Below are positions 6,420 to 63,958 of a stretch of 64,000 bases of DNA, piece by piece (within the stretch, counting starts at the first letter, position 1; every line of letters starts with the position of its first letter). Made by a program: the position numbers and the translations under genes. Where the stretch lies: the NCBI RefSeq assembly GCF_004217315.1, contig NZ_SGWR01000001.1:1054001-1118000 (forward strand). Direction: 5' to 3'. The DNA comes from Corticibacter populi. GTDB taxonomy: Bacteria; Pseudomonadota; Gammaproteobacteria; Burkholderiales; Burkholderiaceae_C. The notes below the pieces were generated by a model. The model searched no databases. It worked only from the letters and a program-made list of their open reading frames with translations, and had not been told where the DNA came from.

Positions 6420-6453
6420 AAACCGGTGCCGCAGAATCCTGCAGCACCGGTTT
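6420..6453. terminator. Bidirectional hairpin between the MetX-like gene and typA
   Basis: Arms AAACCGGTGC (6420-6429) and GCACCGGTTT (6444-6453) pair perfectly around a short inner stem (GCAG/CTGC). It lies in the convergent gap between stops at 6371 and 6490. The U-run is short on both strands, so it is a probable rather than a classic terminator. Confidence 0.6.
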
Positions 6454-6489
6454 GCTCAAGGGCACTCAAGGATGAGGCCCCGAATCACA

Positions 6490-8322: not shown

Positions 8323-8376
8323 GGTTGCTAGGGCTTGGGAAAACGGTTGGGGGGTGTATCGGACATCAAGCAATGA

Positions 8377-9351: not shown

Positions 9352-9354
9352 GGC

Positions 9355-9735: not shown

Positions 9736-9759
9736 CGTGGTGTCGTTCGCCTGCGCCGC

Positions 9760-12603
9760 TTACAGCGTGCGGGCAATCTCCTTGATGTCAAAGAATTCGA
9801 GCTGGTCGCCCTCACGGATGTCCGTGTAGTTCTTCAGCTTGATACCGCATTCGAAGCCCTCACGCACTTCCTTGACGTCTTCCTTGATGCGGCGCAGCGA
9901 ATCGACTTCACCCGTGTAGATGACCACGTTGTCGCGCAGCAGGCGGAAGTGCGAACTGCGCGTGACGAAGCCCGAGGTGACGTAGGAGCCCGCCACCGTA
10001 CCAATCTTCGAAGCGACGAAGACGGTGCGGATGTCGGCCGTACCGGTGACTTCCTCACGCTGCTCCGGAGCCAGCAGGCCCGACATGGCGGTCTTGAGCT
10101 CGTCGACGGCGTCGTAGATGATGCCGTAGTAGCGGATGTCCACGTCATTGGCCTCAGCCAGCTTGCGCGCGCCGGCATCGGCCCGCACGTTGAAGCCGAT
10201 GATGATGCCGCCGGAGGCGATCGCCAGGTTGACATCCGACTCGCTGATGCCGCCCACGCCCGAATACACCACCTGCACCCGCACCTCTTCGGTCGAGAGC
10301 TTGAGCAGCGATTGCGACAGCGCTTCCTGCGAGCCCTGCACGTCGGCCTTGATGAGAATCGGCAGGGTCTTGACCTCGCCGGCCGTCATGTCGGCAAACA
10401 TGTTCTCCAGCTTGGCGGCCTGTTGCTTGGCCAGCTTGGTGTTGCGGAAGCGACCGGCACGGTAGGTGGCGATTTCGCGCGCACGGCGCTCGTCGTTCAT
10501 CACCATGAAATCGTCACCCGCCTGCGGCACCTCGGTTAGACCCTGGATTTCCACCGGGATCGACGGGCCCGCCGCATCGGTGCGCTGGCCGTTCTCGTCA
10601 GTCATGGCGCGCACGCGGCCATAGGTCTGGCCGGCCAGCACCACGTCGCCGACCTTGAGCGTGCCGGACTGCACCAGCACGGTGGCAACCGGGCCGCGGC
10701 CCTTGTCGAGCTGGGCCTCGATCACCAGGCCCTTGGCCATGGCATCGACCGGAGCCTTGAGCTCCAGCACTTCGGCCTGCAGCAGCACGTTCTCGAGCAA
10801 CTCGTCGATGCCCTGACCGGTCTTGGAAGAGACCGCGATGAAGGGCGACTCGCCGCCGTATTCCTCCGGCACGACTTCCTCGCCCACCAGTTCCTGCTTG
10901 ACGCGATCGGGGTTGGCATCGGGCTTGTCGGCCTTGGTGATGGCCACCACGATGGGCACCTTGGCCGCCTTGGCGTGCTTGATGGCTTCCTTGGTCTGCG
11001 GCATCACGCCGTCATCGGCCGCCACCACCAGGATGACGATGTCGGTGGCTTGCGCACCACGGGCACGCATCGCCGTGAAGGCCTCGTGACCCGGGGTGTC
11101 GAGGAAGGAGACGATGCCGCGCGGCGTCTTCACATGGTAGGCGCCAATGTGCTGGGTGATGCCGCCGGCCTCGCCCGAGGCGACCTTGGTGCGGCGGATG
11201 TAATCCAGCAGCGAGGTCTTGCCGTGATCCACGTGGCCCATGACGGTGACCACCGGCGCGCGCGGCAGTTGCTCGGCCTGGTACTGGATGGCCTCGTCCT
11301 CGGTGAAGGCTTCCGGGTCGTCCAGTTGCGCCTGGATCGCCTTGTGGCCCATTTCCTCGACCACGATCATGGCCGTATCCTGATCCAGCGGCTGGTTGAT
11401 GGTCACCATCTGGCCCATCTTCATCAGCGCCTTGATCACCTCGGAAGCCTTGATGGCCATCTTGTGCGCCAGTTCGGCCACCGTGATGGTCTCGGGCACG
11501 TGCACGTCGAGCACGCGCACTTCCTGCGGCGCCGCTTCCTGATGGCGGGACTGGCCACGCTGGTTGCGGTCGTTGCCACGGCGGCCCTTGGGGCCGGCGC
11601 GCCAATTGCTGCCGCCACGGCCCGCGCCACCGGTATCGCCGCGGGTCTTGATTTCCTTCTTCTTGCCGTCGTCGGCCGTCCAGCTCGAGGACAGGTCCGA
11701 AGATTTGATTTCCTTGGCCTTGCGCCCGCCTGCGGGCGCGGCCGTGCCGGTCGCGACCTTCTTCTTGTCGCCACTGTCGGCCGGCTTGGTGAGGGTGCCC
11801 TTCTTCGCGTCGGCGGCAGGCTCCTCGGGCTTCTTGGCCACCAGCACCTTGCGCGGTGCGGACATCATCGAACGGATCGCGGCGGCCTCGGCCTCGGCCT
11901 TGCGGCGGCGGTCCTCCAGATCGGCGGCGCGCTTGGCCTCCTCGGCAGAACGCTGCTGGGCTTCGGCCTCGGCCTTGCGGCGGGCTTCGTCCTGCTCCTT
12001 GGCGCGTTGCTCGGCTTCGGCCTTCTGCTCCTGCACGGTCTGCTGCTTCTGCTGCGCTTCGCGCGCCTTCTTCTCAGCCTCCTGCTGGGCATAGGCGGCG
12101 GCGCGCTGGTCGGCTTCGCGCTCCTTGCGCTCGCGTTCCTGGCGCTCGGAGCTTTCGCGGGCCAGATCCTCCTCCTGGCGGCGCAGCAATTCGGCGTTGC
12201 GGCGGGCCTCGGCCTCGCGGCGCTCCAGATCCTGCTGCTGGGCCTGCTCGGCGGCCGTCTCGGCCACTTCGGCGGCGGGCGCAGCGGCTGCCGGCACCTC
12301 ATCGCGCTTGACGAAGGTGCGCTTTTTGCGGGTCACCACATTGATGGTGCGCGCCTTGCCGGTCGCGTCGGCCTGCTTGATCTCGCTGGTCGAGCGCTTG
12401 GTCAGGGTGATCTTGCTGCGCTCGCCGCCCTCGGCATGGCCGTGCGTGCTGCGCAGGTAGGTGAGGTAATGCTGCTTGTCGACATCGCTGATGGCGTCGT
12501 CCACCGAAGCTTTTTCGATGCCTGCGGCCTTGAGCTGGCGCAGCACGGCTTGCGCGTCCTGCTTGAGCTCGGTGGCAAATTCGGTAATGGTGCTATTGGA
12601 CAT
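9760..12603 (-). CDS. infB: Translation initiation factor IF-2
   Basis: A 947-residue IF-2. The N-terminal IF2_N domain (about 1-50) is followed by a long charged coiled-coil rich in Arg, Glu, Ala and Gln (about 110-245) and a basic low-complexity linker (to about 360). A second IF2_N domain ([27 protein letters not shown]) precedes the GTPase core: [29 protein letters not shown] and TKADKPDAN. Domains II-IV follow. IF-2 brings fMet-tRNA to the 30S subunit and promotes subunit joining. It lies 26 bp after nusA. The long linker is usual in betaproteobacteria. Confidence 0.97.
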
Positions 12604-12629
12604 AAATCTGTTCTCTACCTCCCTGACTC

Positions 12630-14132
12630 TCAGGCCTCGGACCCGGCGGCATCGCCATCGAACCAGTGTTCACGCGCTTTCATGATCAACGCCGTGGCGG
12701 CGGCCTCATCGAGGCCGGTCATCTCCACCAGTTCGTCGGTGGCCAGATCGGCCAGGTCATCCAGGCTCAGCACCTGCTTGTCCGCCAGCTTGGCGAGCAG
12801 TTCGGCATTGATGCCTTCCAGGTCGCGCAGGTCCTGCGATACCTGGGCCACGCTTTGCTCACGGGCGATTTCCTGCGTCAGCAGCGCATCCTTGGCACGG
12901 GCGCGCAGCTCATTGACGGTATCCTCGTCAAGCGTCTCGATCTCCAGCAATTCCTGCAGCGGCACATAGGCCACCTCTTCCAGCGTGGTAAAGCCTTCCT
13001 CGATGAGGATGTCGGCGATTTCCTGGTCCACGTCGAGCTTGCTCATGAACAGCGCGCGGATCTGGTTGTCCTCGCTGGCCTGCTTCTCGGCGGATTCGGC
13101 CGCGTCCATGATGTTGATCTTCCAGCCCGTGAGGTCGGAGGCCAGGCGCACGTTCTGGCCGCCCCGGCCAATCGCGATAGCGAGATTATCCTCGTCCACC
13201 ACCACATCCATGGCGTGTTTTTCCTCATCGACCAGGATGGACTGCACGTTGGCGGGCGCCAGCGCACCGATGACGAACTGCGCCGGGTCTTCCGACCACA
13301 GCACGATGTCCACGCGCTCGCCGGCCAGTTCATTGGTCACCGCATTGACCCGGGTGCCGCGCACGCCCACGCAGGTGCCGATCGGGTCGATGCGCTTGTC
13401 GTGCGAGAGCACGGCGATCTTGGCGCGCGAGCCGGCATCGCGGGCGCAGGACTTGACTTCCAGCAGGCCCTGCTCGATCTCGGGCACCTCGTTGCGGAAC
13501 AACTCGACCATGAACTCCGGCGCCGTGCGCGAGAGCAGGATGGGGGCGCCGCGCAGCGTCGCATCGACCTCGGTAATGATGGCGCGCACGCGGTCGCCAT
13601 TGCGCAGGTTTTCCTTCGGAATCATCTCGGTGCGGCGCAGCCGGCCCTCGACGCGCCCGCTCTCGACGATGGCGTCACCGCCCTTGTCGATGCGCTTGAT
13701 GGTGCCGGTGAAGATCTTGTCGCCACGCGAGAGGAAGTCGTTGAGCAGCATTTCGCGCTCGGCCTCGCGGATCTTCTGCAGGATGACCTGCTTGGCCGCC
13801 ATCGCGCCAATGCGGCCGATGGGGATGGACTCGACCGGCTCCTCGAGGTAGTCGCCGACCTGGACGTCCGCACGCAGATCCTGCGCATCCATCAGCAGTT
13901 CTTCCGCATCGGGGTTTTGCAGACCCGCGTCGTCGGGCACCACCAGCCAGCGGCGCACCGTATGGTAGTCGCCGGTCTCGCGATCGATGACGACGCGGAT
14001 GTCCACGTCCTCCTTGTACAAACGCTTGGTGGCCTGTGCCAGCGCCGATTCGATGGCACTGAAAACCACATCACGTTCTACGTTCTTCTCCAGCGAAATG
14101 GCATCCACCAGCATCAACAGTTCGCGATTCAT
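12630..14132 (-). CDS. nusA: Transcription termination/antitermination factor NusA
   Basis: A 500-residue NusA: N-terminal RNA-polymerase-binding domain ([18 protein letters not shown]), S1 domain (about 135-200), two KH domains including [23 protein letters not shown], and two acidic C-terminal repeats ([19 protein letters not shown] and the last 70 residues), as in gammaproteobacterial NusA. It controls pausing, termination and antitermination. ATG 14132 is preceded by AGGAG on the minus strand; longer readings are not supported. It follows rimP by 86 bp. NusA is known to autoregulate this operon in E. coli, which is relevant to the leader terminator at 14985-15014. Confidence 0.97.
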
Positions 14133-52627: not shown

Positions 52628-52989
52628 GGGCAATTCAGACTGGCGCGGCACCTGCATCGCATCGGCAGGGAGCGGCGAAATTCGATTGAAGAACGGCTGG
52701 CATTGTAGGGCGTGTCATCGTCGCCGCCCCGACCCCGCTGGCTGGCTCGGACTGGGCCGCCATTCTGCCGCCACACACGCGGCAGATCAGGATGCAGCCG
52801 ATTACGGCACGATTCTTGTATACGATTTACCGGCACCATTTCACAACCTGCTGCGCCATCGTGTAACAGGCCGGCCGCCCCGCGCCACCGTCGCGCCAGG
52901 GCGGCCGGCTCCACGCCCATCCTCCCAAGCGTTTTCGCTGCGGATGGGCCATGGCACAACGATGGCGCGGGCATACAAGGATGAAAAGC
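52628..52989. other. 362-bp intergenic region, parC to hpxO
   Basis: No gene is seen. It holds the divergent promoters of parC and hpxO, with a TTGTATACGA operator-like site at 52816-52825. A second weaker match, GGGCATACAA, lies directly before hpxO at about 52969-52978. A GC-rich block of about 90 bp (52866-52955) has no clear structure. Confidence 0.5.
52816..52825. promoter_or_regulatory. GntR-type operator candidate upstream of hpxO
   Basis: TTGTATACGA, close to the consensus TTGnATnCAA shared with sites at 55196 and 59941. It lies 165 bp before hpxO and 190 bp from the parC start. Confidence 0.5.
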
Positions 52990-54147
52990 ATGAAGATCAC
53001 CATCATTGGCGCAGGCATGGGCGGCCTGAGCGCCGGCATCGCACTCCAGCGTCTCGGCCATGACGTGCAGGTCTATGAGCGCGTCACCGAAATCAAACCC
53101 GTGGGCGCCGCCATCTCGCTGTGGTCCAACGGCGTCAAGTGCCTCAATTACCTGGGGCTGGAGCAACAGATCGCGGCACTGGGCGGCCGCATGGATTTCA
53201 TGGCATACGTCGATGGCGCTTCCGGTGAAACCATGACGCGTTTCAGCCTCGCACCGCTGGTGCAGCAGGTCGGCCAGCGCCCCTACCCGGTGGCGCGCGG
53301 TGCATTGCAGAACATGCTGCTGGAGGAATTCGGCCCGCAAGACGTGCACCTGGGCATGGCCCTGGCGGGAGTGGAAGACGATGGCGCGCAGGTCACGGCC
53401 GTCTTTGCCGATGGCAGCCGTGTCAGCGGCGACCTGCTGATCGGCGCGGACGGCACCCACTCCACCGTGCGCGCCCACGTGCTGGGCAGCCAGCCCGAGC
53501 GCCGCTATGCCGGCTACGTCAACTGGAACGGGCTGGTCGAGATCGACGCGGACATCGCACCGGCCGACCAGTGGACCACCTTCGTCGGCGAAGGCAAGCG
53601 CGTCTCCGTCATGCCCATTGCGGACCATCGCTTCTATTTCTTCTTCGACGTGCCGCTGCCCAAGGGACTGCCCAATGAAAAGGAGCAATACCAGGCCTTG
53701 CTGAAGACGTACTTCAAGGGCTGGGCGCAGCCGGTGCAAAGACTGATCGAACGCATCGACCCGCAGGCCACCAACCGCGTCGAGATCCATGACATCGAGC
53801 CGTTCATGCAATGGACCCGGGGCCGCGTGGCGCTGCTGGGCGACGCGGCGCACAGCACCACGCCCGACATCGGCCAGGGTGGCTGCCAGGCCATGGAGGA
53901 TGCCGTGGTTCTGGCCATGGCGCTGCAGACCAACACCCTGGGCGTCGAGGATGCACTGGTGCGCTACCAGAACCGCCGCAACCAGCGCACTGCCGAACTG
54001 GTGCTTCGCGCGCGCAAGCGCTGCGACATCACCCATGCCAAGGACCCGGCTGTCACGCAGACCTGGTACGACGGATTGTGGAAGGAAGGTGGCGACAAGA
54101 TCATCCATGGCATCGTCGCCAACATCGACGGCAACCCGCTGGGCTGA
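52990..54147 (+). CDS. hpxO: FAD-dependent urate hydroxylase HpxO
   Basis: A 385-residue class A flavin monooxygenase, one residue longer than the 384 I recall for Klebsiella pneumoniae Hpx[18 protein letters not shown] binds [18 protein letters not shown] and [21 protein letters not shown] follow. [16 protein letters not shown] and the tail [14 protein letters not shown] match HpxO almost word for word. The residues reported to act on urate, Arg204 and Tyr216, fall at exactly these positions (EGKRVS; FYFFF). It turns urate into 5-hydroxyisourate with NADH and O2. ATG 52990 has AAGGA at the right distance. The GntR gene follows. Hydrolase and decarboxylase genes for the next steps are not in the window. 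Confidence 0.92.
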
Positions 54148-54279
54148 AGCACCGTATCCAGACAGCCTGTTCAAGGAGGGGCTGGCGCCAGCAGTCCATG
54201 GCCGGCCCATGCCGTCCATCCGATCGGGCGGCACACGGCTTGCTTGCCGGAGGTGCATACCATTGCCCCCCGCCACCCC

Positions 54280-55020
54280 ATGTCCAGCACCTACCCGCAC
54301 GCATCTTCCACCAGCATCATCGCCAATGCGTTGACGCAGGCCATCGTCGAGCAGCGCCTGCGTCCCGGTGCCAAGCTCACCGAACAAAAACTCGCCGCCA
54401 GCTTCGGCGTCTCTCGCACCTTGGTGCGCCAGGCCCTGCTGCAACTGGCGCAGCAGAAGCTGGTGACGCTGGAGCCGGCGCGTGGCGCCTTCGTGGCCAG
54501 TCCTTCGGTGCAAGAAGCCCGCGAGGTCTTTGCCGTGCGGCGCATGCTCGAAGGGGCGATGATGCGCCAACTGGCCGCGCAGATCACCGCCACGCAGCTG
54601 CGCGCACTGCGGCTGCATGTCAAGCGCGAGCAGGCGGCGCTGGAAGGGCGCAATGTCCAGGGGCGCACTGAACTGCTGGGCGACTTCCATGTGCGCATGG
54701 CCGAAATGCTGGGCAATGAGGTGCTGGCCCAGATGCTGCGCGAACTGATCTCGCGTTGCGACCTGATCACGCTGATGTACCAGAGCAGCAGCGCTGCCGC
54801 CCATTCGCACGACGAACACAGCCTGATCGTGCAGGCGCTGGCCAGACGGGATGCCGAACTGGCCGCCCGCGTGCTGGACGAACACCTCGAACATGTCGAG
54901 GCCAATCTGAGCTTGGATGCACCGCGCCGCACCACCCGTGGCCGCCAGGCCGCCGGCCAGGACGAAGTCCAGGCTCAAGTCCAAGCGCAAGCCAAGGGAC
55001 AAGAACCTGTTCAAGGGTGA
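54280..55020 (+). CDS. GntR-family regulator, FCD subgroup
   Basis: A 246-residue regulator. The winged helix-turn-helix spans about 10-75 (SIIANALTQAIVEQRLRPGAKLTEQKLAASFGVSRTLVRQALLQLAQQKLVTLEP). The all-helical FCD effector domain follows, with metal-binding His and Asp in GDFHVRMAEMLGN and HDEHSLIVQAL. The last 25 residues are a low-complexity Gln/Ala/Gly tail that includes a copy of the dispersed repeat. It lies 132 bp after hpxO and upstream of the ABC importer, so it is the likely regulator of this locus. A GTG at 54253 is an alternative start. Confidence 0.9.
   Translation: MSSTYPHASSTSIIANALTQAIVEQRLRPGAKLTEQKLAASFGVSRTLVRQALLQLAQQKLVTLEPARGAFVASPSVQEAREVFAVRRMLEGAMMRQLAAQITATQLRALRLHVKREQAALEGRNVQGRTELLGDFHVRMAEMLGNEVLAQMLRELISRCDLITLMYQSSSAAAHSHDEHSLIVQALARRDAELAARVLDEHLEHVEANLSLDAPRRTTRGRQAAGQDEVQAQVQAQAKGQEPVQG
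55003..55013 (+). repeat. Dispersed repeat fused to the GntR gene end
   Basis: GAACCTGTTCA is read as codons for EPVQ just before the GntR stop. The match stops at the A, after which the sequence is unrelated to the other copies. Confidence 0.5.
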
Positions 55021-55195
55021 ACTGCATGCAATCTGCCTGAACGAGATTGCACCAATACAAGGCAGACCTCCTTATAAACGCCCCATCAATGCCATTTTGC
55101 ACACTGAATTGCACCATATTGATGCATTCATGCCTTGTGCATCGGTGCTCTGGCCGTCGCGCACAACGCATTGAGGCAACCAACACACCGGATTG

Positions 55196-55207
55196 ATTGC
55201 ATACAAT
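55196..55207. promoter_or_regulatory. GntR-type operator candidate upstream of the ABC importer
   Basis: ATTGCATACAAT, a near-palindrome (ATTGnATnCAAT), 95 bp before the binding-protein gene. A related CTGCATGCAA lies at 55022-55031. It is the best-formed copy of the motif and marks the importer as part of the GntR regulon. Confidence 0.6.
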
Positions 55208-55302
55208 TTTTCTGCCGACCGCTCATATCCAGAACAGGCATTGATCTTGCGTAAGCGAGTGCAACCGGATTTTTCCTCCACCCTTGCCCTCAGGAGCCTG
55301 CC

Positions 55303-56328
55303 ATGGACAAACGCTTTTTCATCAAGACCGCCCTGCTGATGGTCACTGCCACGAGCTGGGGCCTGGCACAGGCGCAGACCACGCCGATCAAGTTCCAGCT
55401 CGACTGGCGTTTCGAGGGGCCAGCGGCCTTCTTCACGCATCCCGCCGCCAAGGGCTACTTCAAGGAAGCCGGGCTGGACGTCAGCGTCGACGCCGGCAAC
55501 GGCTCGGGGGGCGCCGTCACCCGGGTGGCCTCGGGCTCCTACGACATCGGTTTCGCCGATCTGGCGGCGCTGATGGAATTCCACGCCAACAACCCCGATG
55601 CTCCGACCAAGCCGGTGGCGATCATGATGGTCTACAACAACACGCCCGCCTCGGTCATGGCGCTGAAGAAGAGCGGCATCACCACGCCGGCGGATCTCAG
55701 CGGCAAGAAGCTGGGTGCGCCGGTGTTCGATGCCGGTCGCCGCGCCTTCCCGCTGTTTGCCCAGGCCAACGGCATCACCAACGTGAGCTGGACCTCCATG
55801 GACCCACCGCTGCGCGAGACCATGCTGATCCGCGGCGACATCGACGCCATCACCGGCTTCACCTTCACCTCGCTGCTGAACCTGGAGACACGCGGCGTCA
55901 AGGCCGCTGACGTGACCGTGCTGCCCTACCCCGACTATGGCGTCAAGCTCTACGGCAACGCCATCATCGCCACGCCCAAGCTGCTCGCCGAGAAGCCCGA
56001 AGCCGTCAAGGCCTTCCTGGCCGCCTTCGCCAAGGGCGCCAAGGATGTGATGGCCGATCCGGCCACCGCCATCGAATCGGTCAAGGCGCGCGACGGCCTC
56101 ATCAACTCCGAGCTGGAGACACGCCGCCTCCAACTCGCCATCAACACCGTGGTCAATACCGACGACGCACGCCGCGAAGGCTTTGGCCAGATCGACGCCG
56201 CGCGCCTGGCGCTGATGGCCGAGCAGGTCAGCACCACCTTCGAGACCAAGACCCCGGTGGACCCGGCCGTGGTGTGGGACGGCAGCTTCCTGCCGGCCGA
56301 GGCTGCGGACGTGCTGCCCAAGCCCTGA
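55303..56328 (+). CDS. ABC transporter periplasmic binding protein (NMT1/SsuA type)
   Basis: A 341-residue binding protein. An N-terminal signal (KTALLMVTATSWGLAQAQ, cleavage after AQA) precedes the mature NMT1/THI5-like core PIKFQLDWRFEGPAAFFTHPAAKGYFKEAGLDVSVDAGNG, with DIGFADLAALMEF and RGDIDAITGFTFTSLLNLE. Such proteins bind heterocycles such as hydroxymethylpyrimidine, taurine or nitrate-like compounds. AGGAG precedes the ATG. It starts the importer operon (binding protein, ATPase, permease) and has a paralogue at 61928. A purine-related ligand is inferred from hpxO. Confidence 0.9.
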   Translation: MDKRFFIKTALLMVTATSWGLAQAQTTPIKFQLDWRFEGPAAFFTHPAAKGYFKEAGLDVSVDAGNGSGGAVTRVASGSYDIGFADLAALMEFHANNPDAPTKPVAIMMVYNNTPASVMALKKSGITTPADLSGKKLGAPVFDAGRRAFPLFAQANGITNVSWTSMDPPLRETMLIRGDIDAITGFTFTSLLNLETRGVKAADVTVLPYPDYGVKLYGNAIIATPKLLAEKPEAVKAFLAAFAKGAKDVMADPATAIESVKARDGLINSELETRRLQLAINTVVNTDDARREGFGQIDAARLALMAEQVSTTFETKTPVDPAVVWDGSFLPAEAADVLPKP

Positions 56329-56446
56329 GGCCGATGCCGCGTGCCCGTGCGCCTGGCATGCCCGGCCTGCGTGCGCGGACCGGCCCTTGCCGGCCGTCGG
56401 CATGTCAGCGCCGCCCTTCAGCCTTTACCGCCCATGAGGACTCCCG

Positions 56447-57295
56447 ATGAGCACTGCAACAGCCTCCCGCCCCTTCGTGGATTTCCGCGATGTCTGGCTC
56501 GCCTACAACGAAGAGCTGCTGGCAGCCAACCAGTTCGCCGTCGAAGCCATCAACCTGCAGATCCAGGAAGGTGAATTCATCGCCATCGTCGGCCCGTCGG
56601 GCTGCGGCAAGTCCACCTTCATGAAGCTGACCACGGGCCTGCGCATGCCCTCGATCGGCAAGATCCGCATCGACGGCCAGCCCGTCACCGGGCCGCTGAA
56701 GATCTCCGGCATGGCCTTCCAGTCGCCCTCGCTGCTGCCCTGGCGCACCACCGTGGACAACGTGCTGCTGCCGCTGGAGATCGTCGAGCCCTACCGCAGC
56801 AGCTTCAAGAAAAAGCACAAGGAATACGTCGAGCGCGCGCGCCGCCTGTTGCAGAAGGTCGGCCTGGCCGGCTACGAGGACAAATACCCCTGGGAGCTCT
56901 CGGGCGGCATGCAGCAGCGCGCCAGCATCTGCCGCGCGCTGATCCACGAACCCAAAATGCTGCTGCTCGACGAACCCTTCGGCGCCCTCGATGCCTTCAC
57001 GCGCGAGGAGCTGTGGTGCATCCTGCGCGACCTCTGGACCGAGCAGAAATTCAACGTCATCCTGGTCACGCACGACCTGCGCGAATCGGTGTTCCTGGCC
57101 GACACCGTGTATGTGATGAGCAAGAGCCCCGGCCGCTTCGTCGTCAGGCGCGAGATCGAACTGCCGCGCCCGCGCGAACTGGAAGTGACCTACACCAAGG
57201 AATTCACCGACATCGTGCTGGAGTTGCGCGGCCACATCGGCGCCATCCGCCAGGGCGCCCATGTCACCGGCGAAAGCCCGGTCATCAGCCAGTGA
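56447..57295 (+). CDS. ABC transporter ATP-binding protein
   Basis: A 282-residue SsuB/TauB-like ATPase. Walker A GPSGCGKSTFMK, Q-loop QSPSLLPWRT, signature LSGGMQQRASIC, Walker B MLLLDEPFGALD and the His switch in THDLRES are intact. GAGGA sits before the ATG. It powers the importer with the permease 23 bp downstream. The N-terminus has a short extension that ends in an FRDVWLAY strand. Confidence 0.95.
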   Translation: MSTATASRPFVDFRDVWLAYNEELLAANQFAVEAINLQIQEGEFIAIVGPSGCGKSTFMKLTTGLRMPSIGKIRIDGQPVTGPLKISGMAFQSPSLLPWRTTVDNVLLPLEIVEPYRSSFKKKHKEYVERARRLLQKVGLAGYEDKYPWELSGGMQQRASICRALIHEPKMLLLDEPFGALDAFTREELWCILRDLWTEQKFNVILVTHDLRESVFLADTVYVMSKSPGRFVVRREIELPRPRELEVTYTKEFTDIVLELRGHIGAIRQGAHVTGESPVISQ

Positions 57296-57317
57296 GACGC
57301 CGCAAGGAGCACATGCC

Positions 57318-58085
57318 ATGAAAAACCGCAAACTGTTCGAGACCTGGTCGCCGTGGATCCTGCTGGTGGTCATCCTGGCGCTGTGGCAGATCATCTGCTC
57401 GGCGCTGAACATCTCCGAATTCATCTTCCCGAGCCCGATGCGCATCTGGGAGCAGTTCTGGGAGTACAAGACCGTGATCGCCGGCCACGCCTGGCGCACC
57501 TTCTGGGTGACCATGGCCGGTTTTGGCATCTCCATCGTGGTGGGCGTGCTGCTGGGCTTTCTGATCGGCTCATCACGCCTGGCCTATGCCGCGGTCTATC
57601 CGCTGATGACGGCCTTCAACGCGCTGCCCAAGGCCGCCTTCGTGCCCATCCTGGTGGTGTGGTTCGGCATCGGCGTGGGCCCGGCCATCCTCACCGCCTT
57701 CCTGATCAGCTTCTTTCCCATCATGGTCAACATCGCCACCGGCCTGGCGACACTGGAGCCCGAGCTTGAGGACGTGCTGCGCGTGCTCGGTGCCAAACGC
57801 TGGGACGTGCTGATGAAGATCGGCCTGCCGCGCTCGCTGCCCTACTTCTTCGCTTCGCTGAAGGTCGCCATCACGCTGGCCTTCGTGGGCACCACCGTCT
57901 CGGAGATGACCGCGTCCAACGAGGGGATCGGCTACCTGCTGATCTCGGCGGGCTCGTCGATGCAGATGGGCCTGGCCTTCGCCGGCCTGATGGTGATCGG
58001 CGCCATGGCCATGGCCTGCTACGAACTCTTCAGCCTGGTCGAGAAGCACACCACCGGCTGGTCGCGTCGCGGCTCGCAGAGCTGA
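57318..58085 (+). CDS. ABC transporter permease (SsuC/ThiX-like)
   Basis: A 255-residue inner-membrane permease with about six hydrophobic segments. The EAA-like loop that contacts the ATPase is ATLEPELEDVLRVLGAKRWDVLMKIGLPRSLPYFFASLKV. ATG 57318 follows AAGGAG. It completes the import system, followed by a strong terminator. Confidence 0.93.
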   Translation: MKNRKLFETWSPWILLVVILALWQIICSALNISEFIFPSPMRIWEQFWEYKTVIAGHAWRTFWVTMAGFGISIVVGVLLGFLIGSSRLAYAAVYPLMTAFNALPKAAFVPILVVWFGIGVGPAILTAFLISFFPIMVNIATGLATLEPELEDVLRVLGAKRWDVLMKIGLPRSLPYFFASLKVAITLAFVGTTVSEMTASNEGIGYLLISAGSSMQMGLAFAGLMVIGAMAMACYELFSLVEKHTTGWSRRGSQS

Positions 58086-58158
58086 AGCCTGCCGCGGGGC
58101 CTAACCCCCGGTTGCCGCACCAGAGCGGCTCGCCCAAAAGGGAAAGGCAAAGGTAAAG

Positions 58159-58197
58159 GCAAGGGGGATGCATGATGGCATCCCTCTTGCTTTTTTG
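58159..58197 (+). terminator. Intrinsic terminator of the ABC importer operon
   Basis: GCAAGGGGGATGC (58159-58171) pairs with GCATCCCTCTTGC (58178-58190) with one mismatched region in the stem and a 6-nt loop, followed by six U (58191-58196). It lies 73 bp after the permease stop. Confidence 0.88.
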
Positions 58198-58209
58198 TCG
58201 CGACCCCTG

Positions 58210-58611
58210 TCAGGCCATATCCAGCTTGCACTGGATTTCCTCCAGGTACCCCAGAGCGGTATCCGCATCCCGCTCCAGCAAGGGAGCCAGCACGGCACTG
58301 TCATCGAGCAATGCAAAGGCCATTGACCAGCCCGCATAGCGCCGCGGCGACTGCAGCGGCTGGTGGATCAGCGGCATGAACCCCTGGTGGCGCGGATCCA
58401 TCATCAGGCGCCCGATCAACTGGCCCAGCGGGCCGGCCGGTCCTTCGAGATACTGGCAGAAATGCTCGCCATCGAACACCAGCACACCAGTGATGTCGTG
58501 CTCCGCATTGAAGCGCCGGGCGGTGCGGATGATGTCGCTGACACAACCAGCGTCCTGGCCGTCGGCCAGCACACTGTGATAGAAGAAGCACTCCAGTGCG
58601 GGGGATGACAT
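58210..58611 (-). CDS. BLUF-domain blue-light sensor
   Basis: A 133-residue protein consisting of one BLUF domain. Tyr11 (ECFFYHS), Asn35 (ARRFNAEHDITG), Gln53 (HFCQYLEG), Trp95 and Met97 (AGWSMAF) correspond to AppA Tyr21, Asn45, Gln63, Trp104 and Met106. The spacing Tyr-Asn (24) and Asn-Gln (18) is identical and Gln-Trp is one longer. It should bind flavin and sense blue light. There is no attached output domain, so it must act on a partner protein. It is convergent with the importer operon, sharing the terminator region. Confidence 0.88.
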   Translation of the reverse strand: MSSPALECFFYHSVLADGQDAGCVSDIIRTARRFNAEHDITGVLVFDGEHFCQYLEGPAGPLGQLIGRLMMDPRHQGFMPLIHQPLQSPRRYAGWSMAFALLDDSAVLAPLLERDADTALGYLEEIQCKLDMA

Positions 58612-58716
58612 GCTGCGTGCTCCGTCAAGATGGACCGGGGCGCCGGCTGGCGCCTCCTGTTCGACATTCTAGTGACGCCAAGGTCTCGGGACGTTCGATC
58701 TACCGACAACAGGCAC

Positions 58717-58752
58717 AAAAATGCGCCAACCGGCACAGGGACCGGTTGGCGC
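58717..58752 (-). terminator. Intrinsic terminator after the porin gene
   Basis: Minus strand: an 11-bp perfect stem GCGCCAACCGG / CCGGTTGGCGC (58742-58752 and 58723-58733), 8-nt loop, then AUUUUUG. It lies 84 bp beyond the porin stop. Confidence 0.85.
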
Positions 58753-58835
58753 AAACATGCAGGAAAAGCGAGGCGGCCTTCAGCTCATCGAATCACGCCG
58801 CCGGGCACCCCTCTTGGGCCATGCAAACCTCAAAA

Positions 58836-59867
58836 TCAGAAGTTGTGGCGCAGGCCCACCGCATAGCTGGTGCCGCTGTTGGTGCCGGTGAAGCGGTCAT
58901 GCATCACCACGGTGTAGAGATCGGTGCGCTTGGAGAACGGGTAGTCGTAGCCCACGGACAGGGTCTTGCGCTTGAGGTCGCTGCTGGCGCCCGGGTCATA
59001 GTTGGTCTGAGCATAGGAAGCCAGCAGCTTGCCGGCCCCCAATGGCACACTGGCGCCCACCTGCAGGGTGCCGGCATCATCGCCGTCGATGGCCATGTCA
59101 TCGGCGGCGCCATAGCTCAGGAAAGCCTTGACGAACTTGAAGTCATAGGCGCCGCCGATCATCCAGTCGCTGGTCTTGAAGGCACGCGCACTGACATTGG
59201 GATTGGTCAGCTCGGCCTGCTCATAAAAGCCCGCCAGCGTCAGCGGACCGCTGAAGTAGGTGGCGCTGATGGCCGCGTTGTTCTTGTTGTCATCCGGCGA
59301 CGACAGATTGCTGAACTGGTAGTGCAGGTTCACGGTCAGGCCGCCAAGCTTGGGCGTGCTGTAGACGACCTGATTGCTCCAGCCCGTATCCGCCTGCGCC
59401 GTCTTGACGTAGCCCGGCACGTTGGTCATGTCCATGTGCTGGATCAGCGGCGAGAACGCGAACGAGGCACCGAACGGGTTGACCAACAGCGAAGGCACGA
59501 AGTTCGGCGAGCTGCTGCGGCCGAGCTTGAGGCCGCCGAAACCGCCACTGAGACTGACGTTGGCATCGCGCGCATAGGTCGTGTCGCCATTGAAGCGGCC
59601 ATAGGAGCCGCTATCCATGCGGATGAAGGAGCCGAAGGCGAAGCCGGCCTTGAGGCCGTTGCCCAGATCCTCGGTGCCGGAGAAGCCCAGCCACGAGGTG
59701 GTCATGCCGCCGCTGCCGACCTTGCTCAGACGATCGGTGCCGGCATACTTGATCGAGCCGACATACATGTCGGCCGTGCCGCTGATGGTGACGCTGCTTT
59801 GGGCCAGGGCCGCAGTGCTGGTCAGCAGCAAGGCGATGGCAGCAGGCACGAGCGATTTTTGAAACAT
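58836..59867 (-). CDS. Gram-negative porin
   Basis: A 343-residue outer-membrane beta-barrel precursor. A signal peptide (MFQKSLVPAAIALLLTSTAALAQ) precedes SSVTISGTADMYVGSIKY, the start of the 16-strand porin barrel typical of Burkholderiales. The C-terminus SYAVGLRHNF ends in the Phe needed for outer membrane insertion. It is likely to let small solutes into the periplasm. A TTGTATGCAG operator-like site is 74 bp upstream, so it may belong to the hpxO regulon. ATG 59867 is clear from the signal peptide. Confidence 0.93.
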   Translation of the reverse strand: MFQKSLVPAAIALLLTSTAALAQSSVTISGTADMYVGSIKYAGTDRLSKVGSGGMTTSWLGFSGTEDLGNGLKAGFAFGSFIRMDSGSYGRFNGDTTYARDANVSLSGGFGGLKLGRSSSPNFVPSLLVNPFGASFAFSPLIQHMDMTNVPGYVKTAQADTGWSNQVVYSTPKLGGLTVNLHYQFSNLSSPDDNKNNAAISATYFSGPLTLAGFYEQAELTNPNVSARAFKTSDWMIGGAYDFKFVKAFLSYGAADDMAIDGDDAGTLQVGASVPLGAGKLLASYAQTNYDPGASSDLKRKTLSVGYDYPFSKRTDLYTVVMHDRFTGTNSGTSYAVGLRHNF

Positions 59868-59940
59868 AGTGAACTCTCCATGAGTGGGGGCGGGAAAACA
59901 ATCCTGCCAAGCGTGGCTCAAGCCAGCCGGGCTGGCGATT

Positions 59941-59950
59941 TTGTATGCAG
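59941..59950. promoter_or_regulatory. GntR-type operator candidate upstream of the porin gene
   Basis: TTGTATGCAG (plus strand), matching TTGnATnCAA with one change, 74 bp before the porin start and between the porin and first dioxygenase genes. Confidence 0.5.
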
Positions 59951-60041
59951 TTTCTGTGCCAGAAGACAGCTGCGGGCGCAAGTGCTGCCGGAAGCCACTC
60001 GCACCCCTTCGCCAAGGCACGAACAGCCCCCTGCAAGCGGT

Positions 60042-61109
60042 TCAATACTTGGTGAAATTCGCCATGATGCGTTCGCGCAGGTAATCGCCGCCCGTGATTG
60101 GCGGGTACTTCTTCTGCGGACCTTCGATGACCGCCTCTTCATTGGCCTGGCAGAAGAAGGCGATGCTGTAGCGCGGCCCCAGGTACTCATCCGCACGCGG
60201 GCAGCGCACGCGATGGAAGTTCGAGGGCAGCACGTCATCGCTCCAGCGCATCAGCATGTCGCCGATGTTGCAGGTGATCACGTCGTCGGCAGGCTCCACG
60301 CTGGTCCATTCCTGGCTTTCCATCTCCTTGCCTGGCAGCACCTGCAGGCCGCCCTGGCCCTGGCGCTGGAACAGCAGCGTCAGCGTATCGAAGTCGGTGT
60401 GCGCACCGGCGCGCCAGATGCCGGGCTGGCCCTGCAGCGAACCGGCGTCCACCCCAAAGTAGTGCAGCATGCGCAACGTGCTCTGGTAGCCGGGGGAGGC
60501 GGGGTCGTGCGCCTTGTCGAAGAAGTCCGGCGCAAAACCCAATTTGTATGCAAAACACGAAAGAATCCGCATGCCCACATGCCAGCAGGCCGACTCGAAC
60601 GCCAGCACGCCGTCCTTGAATCCGGGCAATTCCTGCTCGCTCGGCCACAGGCCTTCCATGCGCGGGAGCGTGACCTGGTAGGACTCCTTCTGGTCCGGCG
60701 TGCGCGTCGACGGCCGCACCTGCGCCCGGCTCTCCCAGCCGGCATTGCGCTTGAGCGGCCACTGCGCCTTCACCGCCTCGGGCTGCGCGAAAAAGCGATC
60801 GGCCAGCACAAAGGCACCGCGCACCTGCTCCAGCGGGATGCCATGGTTATAGACCTGGAAGAAGCCGATCTCCGTGGCGGCGTTCCAGAGTTGCTCGGCA
60901 ATCTCCTCCTTGCGACTATCGAAATCGGAGAGGTCGATGCGACGCACCTCGCGGCTGAGGCTTTCATGCCCCATCGCACCCATGCGCGATTCCTTCTCCA
61001 GTTCGACGAGTGAATAGGCATCCGCGCCCTGGCCCGCAGACGGGGATGGTGCAGGCGTGTGCCCGGCGGCCTGTTCGGAGGTTTGCTCGAGTGTTTGATG
61101 GCGGTTCAT
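60042..61109 (-). CDS. Isopenicillin N synthase-family 2-oxoglutarate/Fe(II) dioxygenase (first copy)
   Basis: A 355-residue double-stranded beta-helix oxygenase. The N-terminal DIOX_N-like part (REVRRIDLSDFDSRKEEIAEQLWNAATEIGFFQVYNHG) is followed by the metal site: His237 and Asp239 in GAHTDFDTLTLL, His299 in SNFHRV. Arg313-x-Ser315 (RYSIAFF) would hold the co-substrate acid group. All active-site residues are intact. An N-terminal tail of about 50 residues is low complexity. It is upstream of the porin on the same strand and divergent from the second binding protein. Hydroxylation or demethylation of a small heterocycle is plausible; thymine 7-hydroxylase belongs to the same branch. Confidence 0.9.
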   Translation of the reverse strand: MNRHQTLEQTSEQAAGHTPAPSPSAGQGADAYSLVELEKESRMGAMGHESLSREVRRIDLSDFDSRKEEIAEQLWNAATEIGFFQVYNHGIPLEQVRGAFVLADRFFAQPEAVKAQWPLKRNAGWESRAQVRPSTRTPDQKESYQVTLPRMEGLWPSEQELPGFKDGVLAFESACWHVGMRILSCFAYKLGFAPDFFDKAHDPASPGYQSTLRMLHYFGVDAGSLQGQPGIWRAGAHTDFDTLTLLFQRQGQGGLQVLPGKEMESQEWTSVEPADDVITCNIGDMLMRWSDDVLPSNFHRVRCPRADEYLGPRYSIAFFCQANEEAVIEGPQKKYPPITGGDYLRERIMANFTKY

Positions 61110-61274
61110 GCGTGATGTCCTCTGGCTTGGCAGGAGGTGGTGGCCGTCGCTGCCGTTCTTGAAGTTGCGATCCTGCGCCTGCCGGCAGCCGGACTCTCGG
61201 CCGGCCTCCCCGCACGCGCAGCTTCAAGAGCAATGACCCGCCGCCGCACCTCAGGAGCAAGGGATAACGGCCGA

Positions 61275-61544
61275 CTGAACGCTTCTACTCTTGCCACCGG
61301 CCATGCAACTTCCAGGCCAGCCCGCCATTTCTCTCTCTGCCCCCGCCTCTTCTTTCCTTGTGCCCGGCAAGTCCGCCGATGCCACGCACCAAGCATGCGC
61401 ATGCTCGCATCGATTTGGTGCCAATTCGTAACATCGGTGCGAGGTCTGTTCACCCATGCTCGTCCACACCCCTATCCGCACATCGAACGCCCTCCGTCCT
61501 GGCACAGTCATTGCTTGACGGCTGGCAAGAGTAGAAGCGTTCAG
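61275..61544. repeat. 22-bp perfect inverted repeat flanking 226 bp
   Basis: The left arm begins CTGAACGCTTCTACTCTTGC at 61275 and runs to 61296. The right arm (61523-61544) is its exact reverse complement over all 22 bp. The similarity ends abruptly on both sides. No target-site duplication is evident, and no transposase is between them. It could be a miniature element of 270 bp or two regulator-binding sites. Confidence 0.8.
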
Positions 61545-61559
61545 CGCGGCGGTCCTTCA

Positions 61560-61571
61560 GAACCTGTTCAC
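61560..61571 (+). repeat. Dispersed GAACCTGTTCAC repeat, intergenic copy
   Basis: GAACCTGTTCAC followed by an unrelated GC-rich sequence. It is the fifth copy of the 12-bp core in the window and the only one not touching a stop codon. Confidence 0.55.
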
Positions 61572-61927
61572 GGCCCCGGCGCCCGGAAATTGCTCGATGT
61601 CCCATGTCCTGTTCGCAGGACCGGCAGGTAGGCGCACGCGCGCCGCAGTGCTGGTTTCTGCCGGCTGGAATGTCCAGAAATCCGGGAGATCCATCGATGA
61701 CGCAACGCCCAACGCTCCTTGGCACCGCGGTCCTGCAAGCCATGGCCGCCAGCCCCGCTCCATCCCCATGCCTTTCGGCCCGCGGTGATGGAAGCTGCCA
61801 TGCTCCGCCGCACGCAATCCCGGGCTGAACCTCGCTTTGGCAGGCCACGACTGGCGCGTTGGCAAGCCGACCCGTCCCCCTTCGCCTTCTCCACCCTCGC
61901 TCATTCCATTCTTAAAAGGAATTCCCC

Positions 61928-62956
61928 ATGAAGCGCCGCTCCCTTCTCCAGGCCGCCAGTGTCATCTCCGCGCTCTCGCTGAGCCCCTTCGGCATCCTGC
62001 GCGCCCAACGCAAGACCCCTTTCAAGTTCAACCTCGGCTGGAAGTTCGAGGCCTCCGGTGCCGGCTTCTTCCTGGCCAAGCAACGCGGCTATTACGACGA
62101 GGCCGGCCTGGATGTGACCATCGACTCGGGCAATGGCTCCACGGCCGCCATCAGCTTGGTCGCCAGCGGCGCCTATGACGCCGCCTCGGCCGACCTGGCC
62201 TCGATGATCGAATTCAACGTCAAGCACCCGGAAGCCGGCCTCAAGGCCGTGGCCATGCAGTACGACCTCAACCCCAACGCGCTGATCGTGCGCAAGGGCG
62301 GGCCGATTGCCAAGCCTGGCGATTTCGCCGGCAAACGCATCCTGGGGCAGCCCTTCAATGCCTCGCGCAAGCTGTTTCCGGTGTTCGCCAAGGCCCAGGG
62401 CTTCGATCCGAGCGGCGTGGTCTGGGAGAACATGGATCCGGGCGTGGGCGATACGCGCTTCGCGCAGGGCGACTTTGACGCCGCCGCCTATTTCTATTTC
62501 ACCGGCCTGCTCAATCTCAAGGGCCGGGGCGTCGATCTCGATACGCTGCAGGTCTATCGCTACTGCGATTACGGCATGAAGTCCTATGGCAATGGCCTTG
62601 TTGCCAACCCCAAGTCCATGGCCAACGCCGAGGCCATGAAAGCCTTCGTGGCGGCATCGACGCGTGGCTGGCTCGACGCCATCGCCGACCCTGCAGCAGG
62701 CGGCGCCGCTGTCAAGCAGCAGGAACCGCTGGCCAACCAGGCGCTGGAGACCGAGCGCCTGCAGCTCATCACCACCGGCACCATGCAGACGCCGGATACC
62801 ACCGCCAACGGCTGGGGTGCGGCCACGCCGGAACGCGTGCAGGCCACCATCGATGAGACGCTCGACGCCTTCGGCCTGCAGGCCATGCTGCGCCCTGCCG
62901 ACATCTGGGATGATGCCTTCCTGCCGCCGCTGGAGGTGCGCAAGCTGCGCGTCTGA
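61928..62956 (+). CDS. Second NMT1/SsuA-type periplasmic binding protein
   Basis: A 342-residue paralogue of the binding protein at 55303, with shared blocks: KFNLGWKFEASGAGFFLAKQRGYYDEAGLDVTIDSGNG and ADLASMIEFN. The N-terminus KRRSLLQAASVISALSLSPFG has an RR pair and could be a Tat signal, unlike the first copy. AAAAGGAA precedes the ATG. No ATPase or permease genes are beside it within the window, so it may use the importer at 56.4-58.1 kb or genes beyond the edge. It is followed 33 bp later by a dioxygenase gene. Confidence 0.9.
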   Translation: MKRRSLLQAASVISALSLSPFGILRAQRKTPFKFNLGWKFEASGAGFFLAKQRGYYDEAGLDVTIDSGNGSTAAISLVASGAYDAASADLASMIEFNVKHPEAGLKAVAMQYDLNPNALIVRKGGPIAKPGDFAGKRILGQPFNASRKLFPVFAKAQGFDPSGVVWENMDPGVGDTRFAQGDFDAAAYFYFTGLLNLKGRGVDLDTLQVYRYCDYGMKSYGNGLVANPKSMANAEAMKAFVAASTRGWLDAIADPAAGGAAVKQQEPLANQALETERLQLITTGTMQTPDTTANGWGAATPERVQATIDETLDAFGLQAMLRPADIWDDAFLPPLEVRKLRV

Positions 62957-62989
62957 ACCCGCAGACCCGTTCCACACCGGAGTGCCTGG

Positions 62990-63958
62990 ATGTCCATCCC
63001 CGTCATCGATCTCGCCGGGGCGCTGCGGCCTGGCGATGCCCACCATGCACGCAGCGCCGAAGTGGCGGAACAGATCCGCTCTGCCGGCGAGGCGGCCGGG
63101 TTCTTCTACATCGTCAACCATGGCCTTGATGCCGCACTGATCGCCCGGCAGTTCGATGCCGCCAAGGCCTTGTTCGACCTGCCCGAGACAGACAAGGAGG
63201 CGATCTCGCTCGCGCATTCGCGCGCCGCGCGTGGTCACGAGCGCATTGGCGCGCAGACGCTCGATGCCAATGCCCGGCCGGACGTCAAGGAGAGCTTCTA
63301 TTGCGGCATCGAGTATCCCCCTGACCATCCCTATGTCCAGCGGGGCTACTACTCGTACGGTGCCAACCAGTGGCCCGCGCAACGGCCCTGGATCGCCGCG
63401 CAAAGCCTGGCCTATACCGGCGCCATGTGCGCGCTGGCGCAGCGGCTGATGCAATTGCTTGCGCTCTCGCTGGGCCTGCCTGAAAGCCATTTCGACCACA
63501 TCCACGCCAGCCCGATGGTGACGCTGCGCATGATCCGCTATCCGGCCCACCCCGCCGATGCCGACGAGCGCACCTTCGGTGCCGGCGCGCACACCGACTG
63601 GGGCGCCATCACCCTGCTGGCGCAGGACGCCTGGGGCGGACTGGAAGTGCAAATGCCCGACGGCACCTGGACCGCGGCCACGCCACTCGAGGGTTCGCTG
63701 GTCATCAACCTGGGCGACATGATTCCGCGCTGGACCAACGGCCGCTACCACTCCAACCCGCACCGGGTGCGCAACACCCGTTCGGGCGGCGCGCCCCGCT
63801 ACGCCATCCCGTTCTTCTACACCCCTGATTACATGGCGCGCATCGAAGCCGTGCCCGGCAGCGTGCCGGACGGCGCGGCACCGCTCCATCCGCCCTGCAC
63901 GGTGGGCGAGCATCTGCAGGAGATGTACCGCAAGACCTACGGCGTTCAAGCCGCCTGA
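62990..63958 (+). CDS. Isopenicillin N synthase-family 2-oxoglutarate/Fe(II) dioxygenase (second copy)
   Basis: A 322-residue oxygenase. It starts MSIPVIDLAGAL, with EAAGFFYIVNHG early on; the metal residues are His201 and Asp203 (GAHTDWGAITLL) and His258 (SNPHRV). The co-substrate arginine is Arg270, but the usual serine two residues on is Ala272 (RYAIPFF). It differs from the first copy in length and N-terminus, so it is a separate enzyme rather than a recent duplicate. It is coupled to the second binding protein. The substrate is unknown. Confidence 0.88.
   Translation: MSIPVIDLAGALRPGDAHHARSAEVAEQIRSAGEAAGFFYIVNHGLDAALIARQFDAAKALFDLPETDKEAISLAHSRAARGHERIGAQTLDANARPDVKESFYCGIEYPPDHPYVQRGYYSYGANQWPAQRPWIAAQSLAYTGAMCALAQRLMQLLALSLGLPESHFDHIHASPMVTLRMIRYPAHPADADERTFGAGAHTDWGAITLLAQDAWGGLEVQMPDGTWTAATPLEGSLVINLGDMIPRWTNGRYHSNPHRVRNTRSGGAPRYAIPFFYTPDYMARIEAVPGSVPDGAAPLHPPCTVGEHLQEMYRKTYGVQAA

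Follow-up and report, generated by a model that had tools for sequence, protein, structure and literature searches.

Back-to-back xanthine riboswitches lead the oxygenase units of a probable purine-linked locus beside hpxO in Corticibacter populi

A cluster of genes next to hpxO, which encodes an FAD-dependent urate hydroxylase, is very probably linked to purines in Corticibacter populi. The cluster occupies positions 52990-63958 of a 64,000-nucleotide stretch (the window; contig C1, 1054001-1118000, in a genome of 4.2 Mb and 9 contigs) and includes the genes for two Fe(II)/2-oxoglutarate (2OG) oxygenases, here termed OX1 and OX2, which belong to divergent units. Using the Rfam family RF03054 (NMT1 motif) at its gathering threshold of 36 bits, we detected two xanthine riboswitches back to back in the 0.8 kb between these units. 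The minus-strand copy lies 113 nt before the start of OX1, and the plus-strand copy lies 327 nt before the gene for SBP2, a substrate-binding protein encoded just upstream of OX2. The original prediction, made from the sequence of the window, had proposed a purine catabolic locus built around HpxO. The purine link is upheld by the riboswitches that lead both oxygenase units and by the distance of just 2.3-7.2 kb, start to start, between OX1 and HpxO in 19 of 25 Acinetobacter genomes that carry OX1; the riboswitches are far stronger support for it than the neighborhood alone. All nine genes named in that prediction are present according to open reading frame listing and Pfam and NCBIfam scans, and its inventory had overlooked the two riboswitches and a BLUF protein gene.

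According to the available text of Yu and Breaker (2020; PMC7373994), members of RF03054 were found experimentally to bind xanthine (dissociation constant approximately 3.7 µM) and urate (approximately 25 µM), reject methylated xanthines and urates, and represent an OFF switch that probably acts on translation. Since these ligands and the OFF action are published for other members of the family, OX1 and SBP2-OX2 are very likely turned off by oxidized purines. Alignment of six riboswitch copies, including both copies from the window, revealed 23 invariant columns. Across 139 copies, 81.9% of the P1/P2 stem positions were paired compared with 75.9% in shuffles and 117 double changes were counted compared with 46.4, in an alignment that was fitted to the structure and is hence biased in this direction. 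Pairs in which both partners had changed showed no excess (8 compared with 7.8 in shuffles). No third RF03054 copy was found in the genome using strict filters, which lose some weak matches.

The association between OX1 and the riboswitch is conserved among relatives. We used the best 80 of 337 OX1 relatives with their flanks and counted locus genes by tblastn, with reference proteins from this genome and from loci L037, L084, L085, and L106, which match by construction. In 73 of the 80 loci, OX1 is preceded by a riboswitch at a distance of at most 500 nt. In two further loci, from Rouxiella (L095) and Serratia (L102), it leads a string of SBP, PRK12393, and OX1 genes, one locus (L057) has a divergent copy only, and four (L067, L075, L091, and L109) show no riboswitch at an E-value of 0.01. 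Divergent copies lead the genes for the binding proteins SBP3 (31 loci), AcSBP from Acinetobacter (19), and SBP2 (11, i.e., every relative's locus with SBP2), and in one locus a deaminase gene of the DeamA type. The arrangement of the window, in which SBP2-OX2 is divergent from OX1 and is accompanied by a first binding protein (SBP1), ATPase, and permease of an ATP-binding cassette (ABC) transporter, recurs in Ramlibacter L084, Curvibacter L093, L096, and L104. In the Ramlibacter locus, the OX1, OX2, SBP2, and ABC genes are followed by MaeB and then by the ureide genes for M20, OHCU-allantoate amidohydrolase, and PuuE. The ABC ATPase is 80-92% identical in relatives with the same ABC set. The closest OX1 among the 80 is that of Lampropedia cohaerens (82%), where a relative of the window porin (66%) is encoded approximately 3.4 kb from OX1.

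Among 119 Acinetobacter genomes, 25 carry OX1, 75 HpxO, 26 a PRK12393 amidohydrolase above its cut-off, and 14 xanthine dehydrogenase (XDH; 13 above cut-off). All 25 OX1 genomes also carry HpxO and PRK12393, and the 26th PRK12393 genome (G431) lacks OX1. The hypergeometric probabilities of these co-occurrences, which ignore shared ancestry, are 1.6e-6 for OX1 with HpxO and 7.9e-25 for OX1 with PRK12393. Riboswitches were searched for in 67 genomes, 61 from Acinetobacter (the 25 with OX1, G431, 25 of the 50 with HpxO only, and 10 of the 43 remaining) and six others, with stricter filters at which some weak matches are lost. They were present in all 25 OX1 genomes and in G431, in none of the 25 HpxO-only genomes, and in none of the 10 with neither gene. 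OX1 and PRK12393 are unlinked in five of the 25 genomes yet co-occur; here, one riboswitch precedes OX1 by 115-120 nt and the other is located on the strand of PRK12393, approximately 2.8 kb upstream of it. Where OX1 and HpxO are linked in Acinetobacter, the gene order and the GntR regulator differ from those of the window. Six Acinetobacter OX1 loci (L074, L077, L080, L086, L088, and L100) have no true HpxO in the examined flank; in L077, the one that was scanned, OX1 lies near a gene for a Rieske-like oxygenase, itself a weak match, and one that resembles ferredoxin reductase.

The nearest solved relative of OX1 is fungal thymine 7-hydroxylase (T7H), with a profile score of 151.7 bits to 5c3p; the best match outside T7H, 3oox, reached 116.1 bits. 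A Foldseek search with an AlphaFold model of OX1 (pLDDT 79, pTM 0.80) returned T7H at all ranks from 1 to 11 (E-values 2.5e-26 to 5.7e-24, 28-30% identity). For comparison, T7H site residues were taken from the available text of PMC4787775. The metal triad of OX1 (H237, D239, and H299) and its 2OG residues (R213, Y217, R313, and S315) are invariant in 22 aligned sequences, which come from the window and 21 of the 80 loci; L087 was dropped due to one stop in the translated stretch. Positions involved in base binding are either retained or replaced by similar residues. The base-stacking Phe292 of T7H is kept as F319, Tyr217 corresponds to F240 (Tyr in some relatives), and Glu122 and Asn294 are both changed, to Q145 and Q321; N122, the putative counterpart of N87, was placed by eye across an alignment gap. 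This pattern fits, and does not prove, an action of OX1 on a free base other than thymine. Much of the T7H-like pocket is common to the fold, and for this reason the pocket is not proof of the substrate.

OX2 is closer to 9ovh, a protein of the ethylene-forming enzyme type (212.6 bits), and matches T7H more weakly (125 bits). Its relatives are 62-71% identical and adjoin SBP2, which itself shares 40% identity with SBP1. In the 2OG-binding Arg-x-Ser motif, OX2 of the window reads RYA compared with RYS or RHS in two aligned orthologues, and its cosubstrate binding is possibly altered. The search with OX2 revealed seven genes for isopenicillin N synthase (IPNS)-like oxygenases in the genome, two of which are OX1 and OX2. 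Locus L020 (1-16989; C2:806000-825900) encodes RutA (690.9 bits), an isochorismatase-like protein, three further IPNS-like oxygenases, and two ABC sets that by eye resemble nucleoside transporters. Locus L022 (1005-9794; C1:1224000-1243000) encodes an XDH-like enzyme, a CDA-fold deaminase, an alpha/beta hydrolase, an OX2 paralogue (46%), and, by eye and similarity, an NMT1-type ABC importer; no riboswitch was detected in this locus at the gathering threshold.

OX1 is regularly accompanied by a deaminase, with one family or another found in the flank of 69 of the 80 loci. The CDA-fold DeamA type occurs in 45 loci and PRK12393, counted at more than 55% identity to the L037 protein, in 21, with overlaps; other loci have a cytosine-deaminase-like amidohydrolase or the DeamB type. 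Because unrelated deaminase families are used near one oxygenase, this distribution suggests that a deamination step belongs to the OX1 pathway. The best solved relative of DeamA is a guanine deaminase, at just 62.9 bits, a score on a par with those of other deaminases. In Acinetobacter L037, the partner of OX1 scores 761.7 bits with PRK12393 (cut-off 543) and 378.7 bits with PRK08203 (cut-off 532), and an assignment as 8-oxoguanine deaminase proper was therefore rejected. The same protein matches 2paj (656 bits; residues 7-473 of 484), a structure that we take to be isoxanthopterin deaminase. A second amidohydrolase, 34-35% identical to PRK12393, lies near HpxO in six of the 19 HpxO-linked loci (L032, L035, L036, L039, L041, and L042); in the one locus scanned, L036 (15858-17231, minus strand), it directly adjoins HpxO and, at 673.9 bits against a cut-off of 532, qualifies as a true 8-oxoguanine deaminase. 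The two coexisting deaminases probably differ in specificity. In C. populi, OX1 is probably served by the CDA-fold enzyme of L022, which is 64% identical to the DeamB type.

HpxO of the window passes the equivalog cut-off of NF033623 and aligns end to end with 3rp6, presumably Klebsiella HpxO. Residues 204, 216, and 293 are Arg, Tyr, and Asp; R204 and Y216, both functionally important, fall in a gap-free stretch of this alignment, confirming their earlier placement at the Klebsiella positions. The protein is predicted to convert urate to 5-hydroxyisourate. The enzymes for the following steps had been expected outside the window and are indeed encoded on contig C2, in locus L019 (C2:1-18000; 5059-13600). 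This locus holds hydroxyisourate hydrolase, an OHCU decarboxylase fused to allantoate amidohydrolase, and the allantoinase PuuE, together with a PuuD-type urate oxidase, an M20 hydrolase, a xanthine permease, and a sister GntR regulator to which the GntR of the window is 59% identical (BLASTP). XDH is encoded elsewhere in the genome, on another contig (1242.9 bits).

HpxO, the ABC importer, and the porin possibly form one regulon of the two sister GntR regulators. Both loci share a palindromic candidate operator pattern, KTGYATRCRNT, with six matches in the window compared with 2.11 expected and three in L019 compared with 0.58 expected; as the pattern was derived from the very sites found, these counts are not an independent test. 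It also precedes the gntR and permease genes of the PuuD locus and occurs once elsewhere in the 64 kb (33659). The site upstream of the porin shares 17 of 18 bases with the one that precedes the xanthine permease gene in the PuuD locus. L022 has no match compared with 0.68 expected, L020 has one compared with 0.60, and one of five XanPerm regions of relatives is preceded by the pattern. A simpler palindrome, TTGTATACAA, gave three window matches with one mismatch allowed compared with 0.06 expected; one of the three falls within OX1 itself. We regard the operator pattern as a lead that is suggestive only.

On balance, the cluster probably functions as a nucleobase-scavenging island that has two control layers and is product-limited by xanthine and urate, a scheme in which we infer the substrate, the order of steps, and the GntR regulon. 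The porin and the NMT1-type ABC importer, with its second binding protein, would bring in a purine-like heterocycle that would then be oxidized by OX1, with its T7H-like pocket, and by OX2. A deaminase, represented near OX1 in relatives by PRK12393 or a CDA-fold enzyme and encoded elsewhere in C. populi, would act on the same substrate or on its product, and the product would lead to xanthine or urate. These would bind both riboswitches and stop translation of OX1 and SBP2-OX2 as product feedback, and HpxO and the PuuD pathway would drain urate and thereby release the brake. Because OX1 is regularly found with a deaminase, an amino-oxo bicyclic base, of the guanine type or a pterin, would be the favored substrate.

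Several observations weigh against this scheme. The leader of SBP2 measures 327 nt compared with at most 194 nt between riboswitch and SBP2 match in relatives, in single-sequence folding the two window riboswitches are no more stable than shuffles (z 0.0 and 0.97), and no RF03054 copy precedes hpxO at the gathering threshold. OX1 of the window has no adjoining deaminase, and none of the three CDA-fold genes found in the genome, in which PRK12393 was not searched for, belongs to the DeamA type (identity no higher than 43%). With 2paj, taken to be isoxanthopterin deaminase, as its closest solved relative, PRK12393 argues for pterins over purines. The operator pattern precedes just two of 20 SBP1 genes of relatives (approximately 0.15 expected). 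Three genomes of the same genus (G086, G188, and G263) gave no match for HpxO, XDH, or the riboswitch (OX1 was not searched there), so the island is not a genus trait. Finally, HpxO matches occur in 23 of the 80 OX1 loci, four of them merely 28-29% identical, and 61 loci have no true HpxO in the examined flank, with some loci ending at contig ends.

The last point also bears on the route that the original prediction had drawn, from import through oxidation to HpxO as the final step. Its assignment to purines is supported; a dedicated chain ending in HpxO is not supported, as HpxO and the oxygenase module are separable, and the proposed route is thus supported in part. In addition to the 61 OX1 loci, 50 of the 75 HpxO-bearing Acinetobacter genomes lack OX1, and PuuD and XDH are already present in the C. 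populi genome. HpxO occurs in two of 299 genomes sampled from the family, and the other genome (G022) has none of the island neighbors within approximately 9.5 kb of HpxO, i.e., a relative carries HpxO without them. This gene and the OX1 loci without HpxO rule out a cluster specific to HpxO. A conserved neighborhood is seen in OX1-bearing Acinetobacter, where 19 of the 25 genomes show the linkage, and is not constant with HpxO.

In its most far-reaching form, which is tentative and rather unlikely to hold in full, the scavenging scheme would have bacterial OX1-type enzymes use Fe(II) and 2OG to hydroxylate the ring of free amino-purines or pterins. Acting with a dedicated deaminase, they would provide a molybdenum-free route to urate-level compounds that is throttled by back-to-back xanthine riboswitches, and HpxO would release the brake by consuming the ligand. 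If true, a feedback loop would join an RNA sensor to a neighboring catabolic enzyme.

The deaminases are also what speaks for pterin catabolism, an explanation that we consider unlikely. OX1 would hydroxylate a pterin, for example to isoxanthopterin, and PRK12393 would deaminate it, while the riboswitch would merely report plentiful purine nitrogen and the link to HpxO would simply be convenient in an island that scavenges nitrogen. The match of PRK12393, which always accompanies OX1 in Acinetobacter, to 2paj extends over almost the entire protein, and the true 8-oxoguanine deaminase near HpxO in L036 implies that the two deaminases probably differ in substrate; these two points keep a pterin substrate for OX1 open. 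Isoxanthopterin and pterin-6-carboxylate are deaminated by Sargasso Sea enzymes of the 8-oxoguanine deaminase family (available text of the review PMC5270733), and pterin 7-hydroxylation is known for insect XDH (available text of PMC11121863). We take 2paj to be one of these Sargasso Sea enzymes. The riboswitch ligands, however, are xanthine and urate, and no pterin gene was recognized in the island. Furthermore, Yu and Breaker obtained isoxanthopterin for their tests, and the main text of PMC7373994, as far as available, does not name it as a ligand.

Chance could also have brought the genes together, with hpxO-gntR being a mobile urate cassette beside an unrelated riboswitch module. We assign this a low probability. 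The scarcity of HpxO in the family would agree with it, as would its position in G022 (C3:156.5 kb), approximately 150 kb from the riboswitches at 308.7 kb, and the module of L. cohaerens, which has no HpxO in the 21 kb examined. However, the linkage recurs in the 19 Acinetobacter genomes, where neither the gene order nor the GntR is that of the window, and urate is both a riboswitch ligand and the substrate of HpxO.

A molybdenum-free route in which OX1 oxidizes guanine or xanthine at C8 in place of XDH appears doubtful. Its appeal lies in the distribution of XDH, which is lacking in 18 of the 19 Acinetobacter genomes with HpxO-linked OX1 and present in all six with unlinked OX1, and in the true 8-oxoguanine deaminase beside HpxO in L036. 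Yet OX1 and XDH are both absent from 44 HpxO genomes, which argues that XDH is simply rare in Acinetobacter, and among OX1 carriers XDH occurs at a higher rate than expected (7 of 25, p 0.01, shared ancestry ignored). On these two grounds we rejected the idea that OX1 necessarily replaces XDH. Across groups, XDH is present in 24 of the 31 OX1 genomes tested, C. populi included, and, to our knowledge, T7H-type enzymes are known for methyl oxidation and not for ring C-H oxidation of purines.

Methyl oxidation being the chemistry of T7H, the oxygenases might instead strip methyl groups from imported methylguanines or methylxanthines ahead of normal purine catabolism, two enzymes serving two methyl positions, as the methylated purine of the original prediction would have it. 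This N-demethylation is quite improbable: the rejection of methylated xanthines and urates by the riboswitch (available text of PMC7373994) would suit a product sensor, but the pairing with deaminases is explained less directly, and no Rieske Ndm or TmuM-type gene was recognized in the island, where no search was aimed at them. A thiamin NMT1/THI5 import locus was set aside, as Pfam and NCBIfam scans showed no thiamin gene among the nine genes of the island; Yu and Breaker likewise describe the NMT1 genes under the xanthine riboswitch as distinct from thiamin NMT1 genes (available text of PMC7373994).

The features of the proposed scavenging island are listed in Table 1. The cluster is flanked by housekeeping genes, glmS and parC upstream and a GGDEF/EAL gene and ileS downstream, all named from their translations without family search. 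The hairpin 3' of the porin possibly marks the end of an OX1-porin unit. The BLUF blue-light sensor gene lies between permease and porin, and no purine connection was seen for it. A sigma-70 promoter scan was uninformative (1 found compared with 1.7 expected).

Table 1. Genes, riboswitches, and candidate regulatory sites of the C. populi locus, in window coordinates.
Feature	Position	Strand	Evidence
Candidate GntR operator upstream of hpxO	52816-52826	+	KTGYATRCRNT
HpxO, FAD-dependent urate hydroxylase	52990-54147	+	NF033623 641.8 bits (cut-off 500); 3rp6 492.9 bits
GntR/FCD regulator	54280-55020	+	Pfam
Candidate GntR operator just after gntR	55021-55031	-	KTGYATRCRNT
Candidate GntR operator upstream of SBP1	55196-55207	.	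KTGYATRCRNT
SBP1, NMT1-type substrate-binding protein	55303-56328	+	PF09084 124.2 bits
ABC transporter ATPase (start 56447 or 56477)	56447-57295	+	PF00005
ABC transporter permease	57318-58085	+	PF00528
BLUF protein	58210-58572	-	PF04940 71.8 bits
Terminator-like hairpin 3' of porin	58722-58753	-	Pattern scan only: 13 pairs, 9 GC, T tail
Porin (Porin_4), downstream of OX1	58836-59867 (longer open reading frame to 60020)	-	Pfam 182.9 bits
Candidate GntR operator upstream of porin	59941-59951	+	KTGYATRCRNT
OX1, Fe(II)/2OG oxygenase	60042-61109	-	Pfam
Xanthine riboswitch (NMT1 motif RNA) ahead of OX1	61223-61295	-	RF03054 51.2 bits
Xanthine riboswitch ahead of SBP2-OX2	61524-61600	+	RF03054 42.2 bits
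SBP2, second NMT1-type binding protein	61928-62956	+	PF09084 118 bits
OX2, second Fe(II)/2OG oxygenase	62990-63958	+	Pfam DIOX_N and 2OG-FeII_Oxy

Yu and Breaker had already tied the xanthine riboswitch to IPNS-like dioxygenases, NMT1 proteins, and deaminases in 2020, which weakens the novelty that the original prediction saw in oxygenases at a purine locus. In the available text of that study, the precise functions of the dioxygenases were not established and no genes for the degradation of oxidized purines were observed with the riboswitch (PMC7373994). We found no open literature joining the IPNS family with allantoin, or with XDH, urate, and an ABC transporter, and the term "dioxygenase" does not occur in the available part of PMC8266621 on this riboswitch. 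New with respect to the literature examined are the link of the riboswitch module to HpxO and a ureide cluster, the constant PRK12393 companion in Acinetobacter, and the T7H relation. The locus and its Acinetobacter counterparts place the xanthine riboswitch beside the urate pathway, and OX1 gains a constant deaminase companion in Acinetobacter and a nucleobase-binding structural relative. The open question of the dioxygenases is thereby narrowed to one enzyme pair and a few candidate substrates (guanine, xanthine, hypoxanthine, methylpurines, and pterins).

Compared with the RF03054 regulons of PMC7373994, the downstream gene types are the same (IPNS-like pcbC, NMT1, and tauA, with PRK12393 and tadA in relatives), and two opposed riboswitches are present as in Hydrogenophaga intermedia. 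The module here abuts hpxO, and in Acinetobacter a urate-allantoin cluster, whereas the available text of PMC7373994 reports no such genes. The uric acid module of Acinetobacter, which comprises hpxO with puuE, hiuH, OHCU decarboxylase, alc, allA, and a permease, shares hpxO with the island, and the terms "isopenicillin" and "oxygenase" are absent from its main text as available (PMC10117892). The Klebsiella hpx genes are similar in having the HpxO equivalog with R204 and Y216. The island differs from them in having 2OG oxygenases and an NMT1 ABC importer instead of Rieske hpxDE or XDH, with XDH on another contig and the later enzymes on another contig with PuuD. Loci of PuuD, a cytochrome c urate oxidase, resemble the island in their sister GntR and later ureide genes, found in the same genome, and differ from it by enzyme and by contig. 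With respect to fungal T7H (5c3o-5c3s; available text of PMC4787775), OX1 keeps the metal triad and the counterparts of R190, Y194, R286, S288, and F292 and differs in having Gln for E122 and N294 and Phe or Tyr for Y217. In contrast to the fungal enzyme, OX1 is bacterial and found in purine-linked rather than thymine loci.

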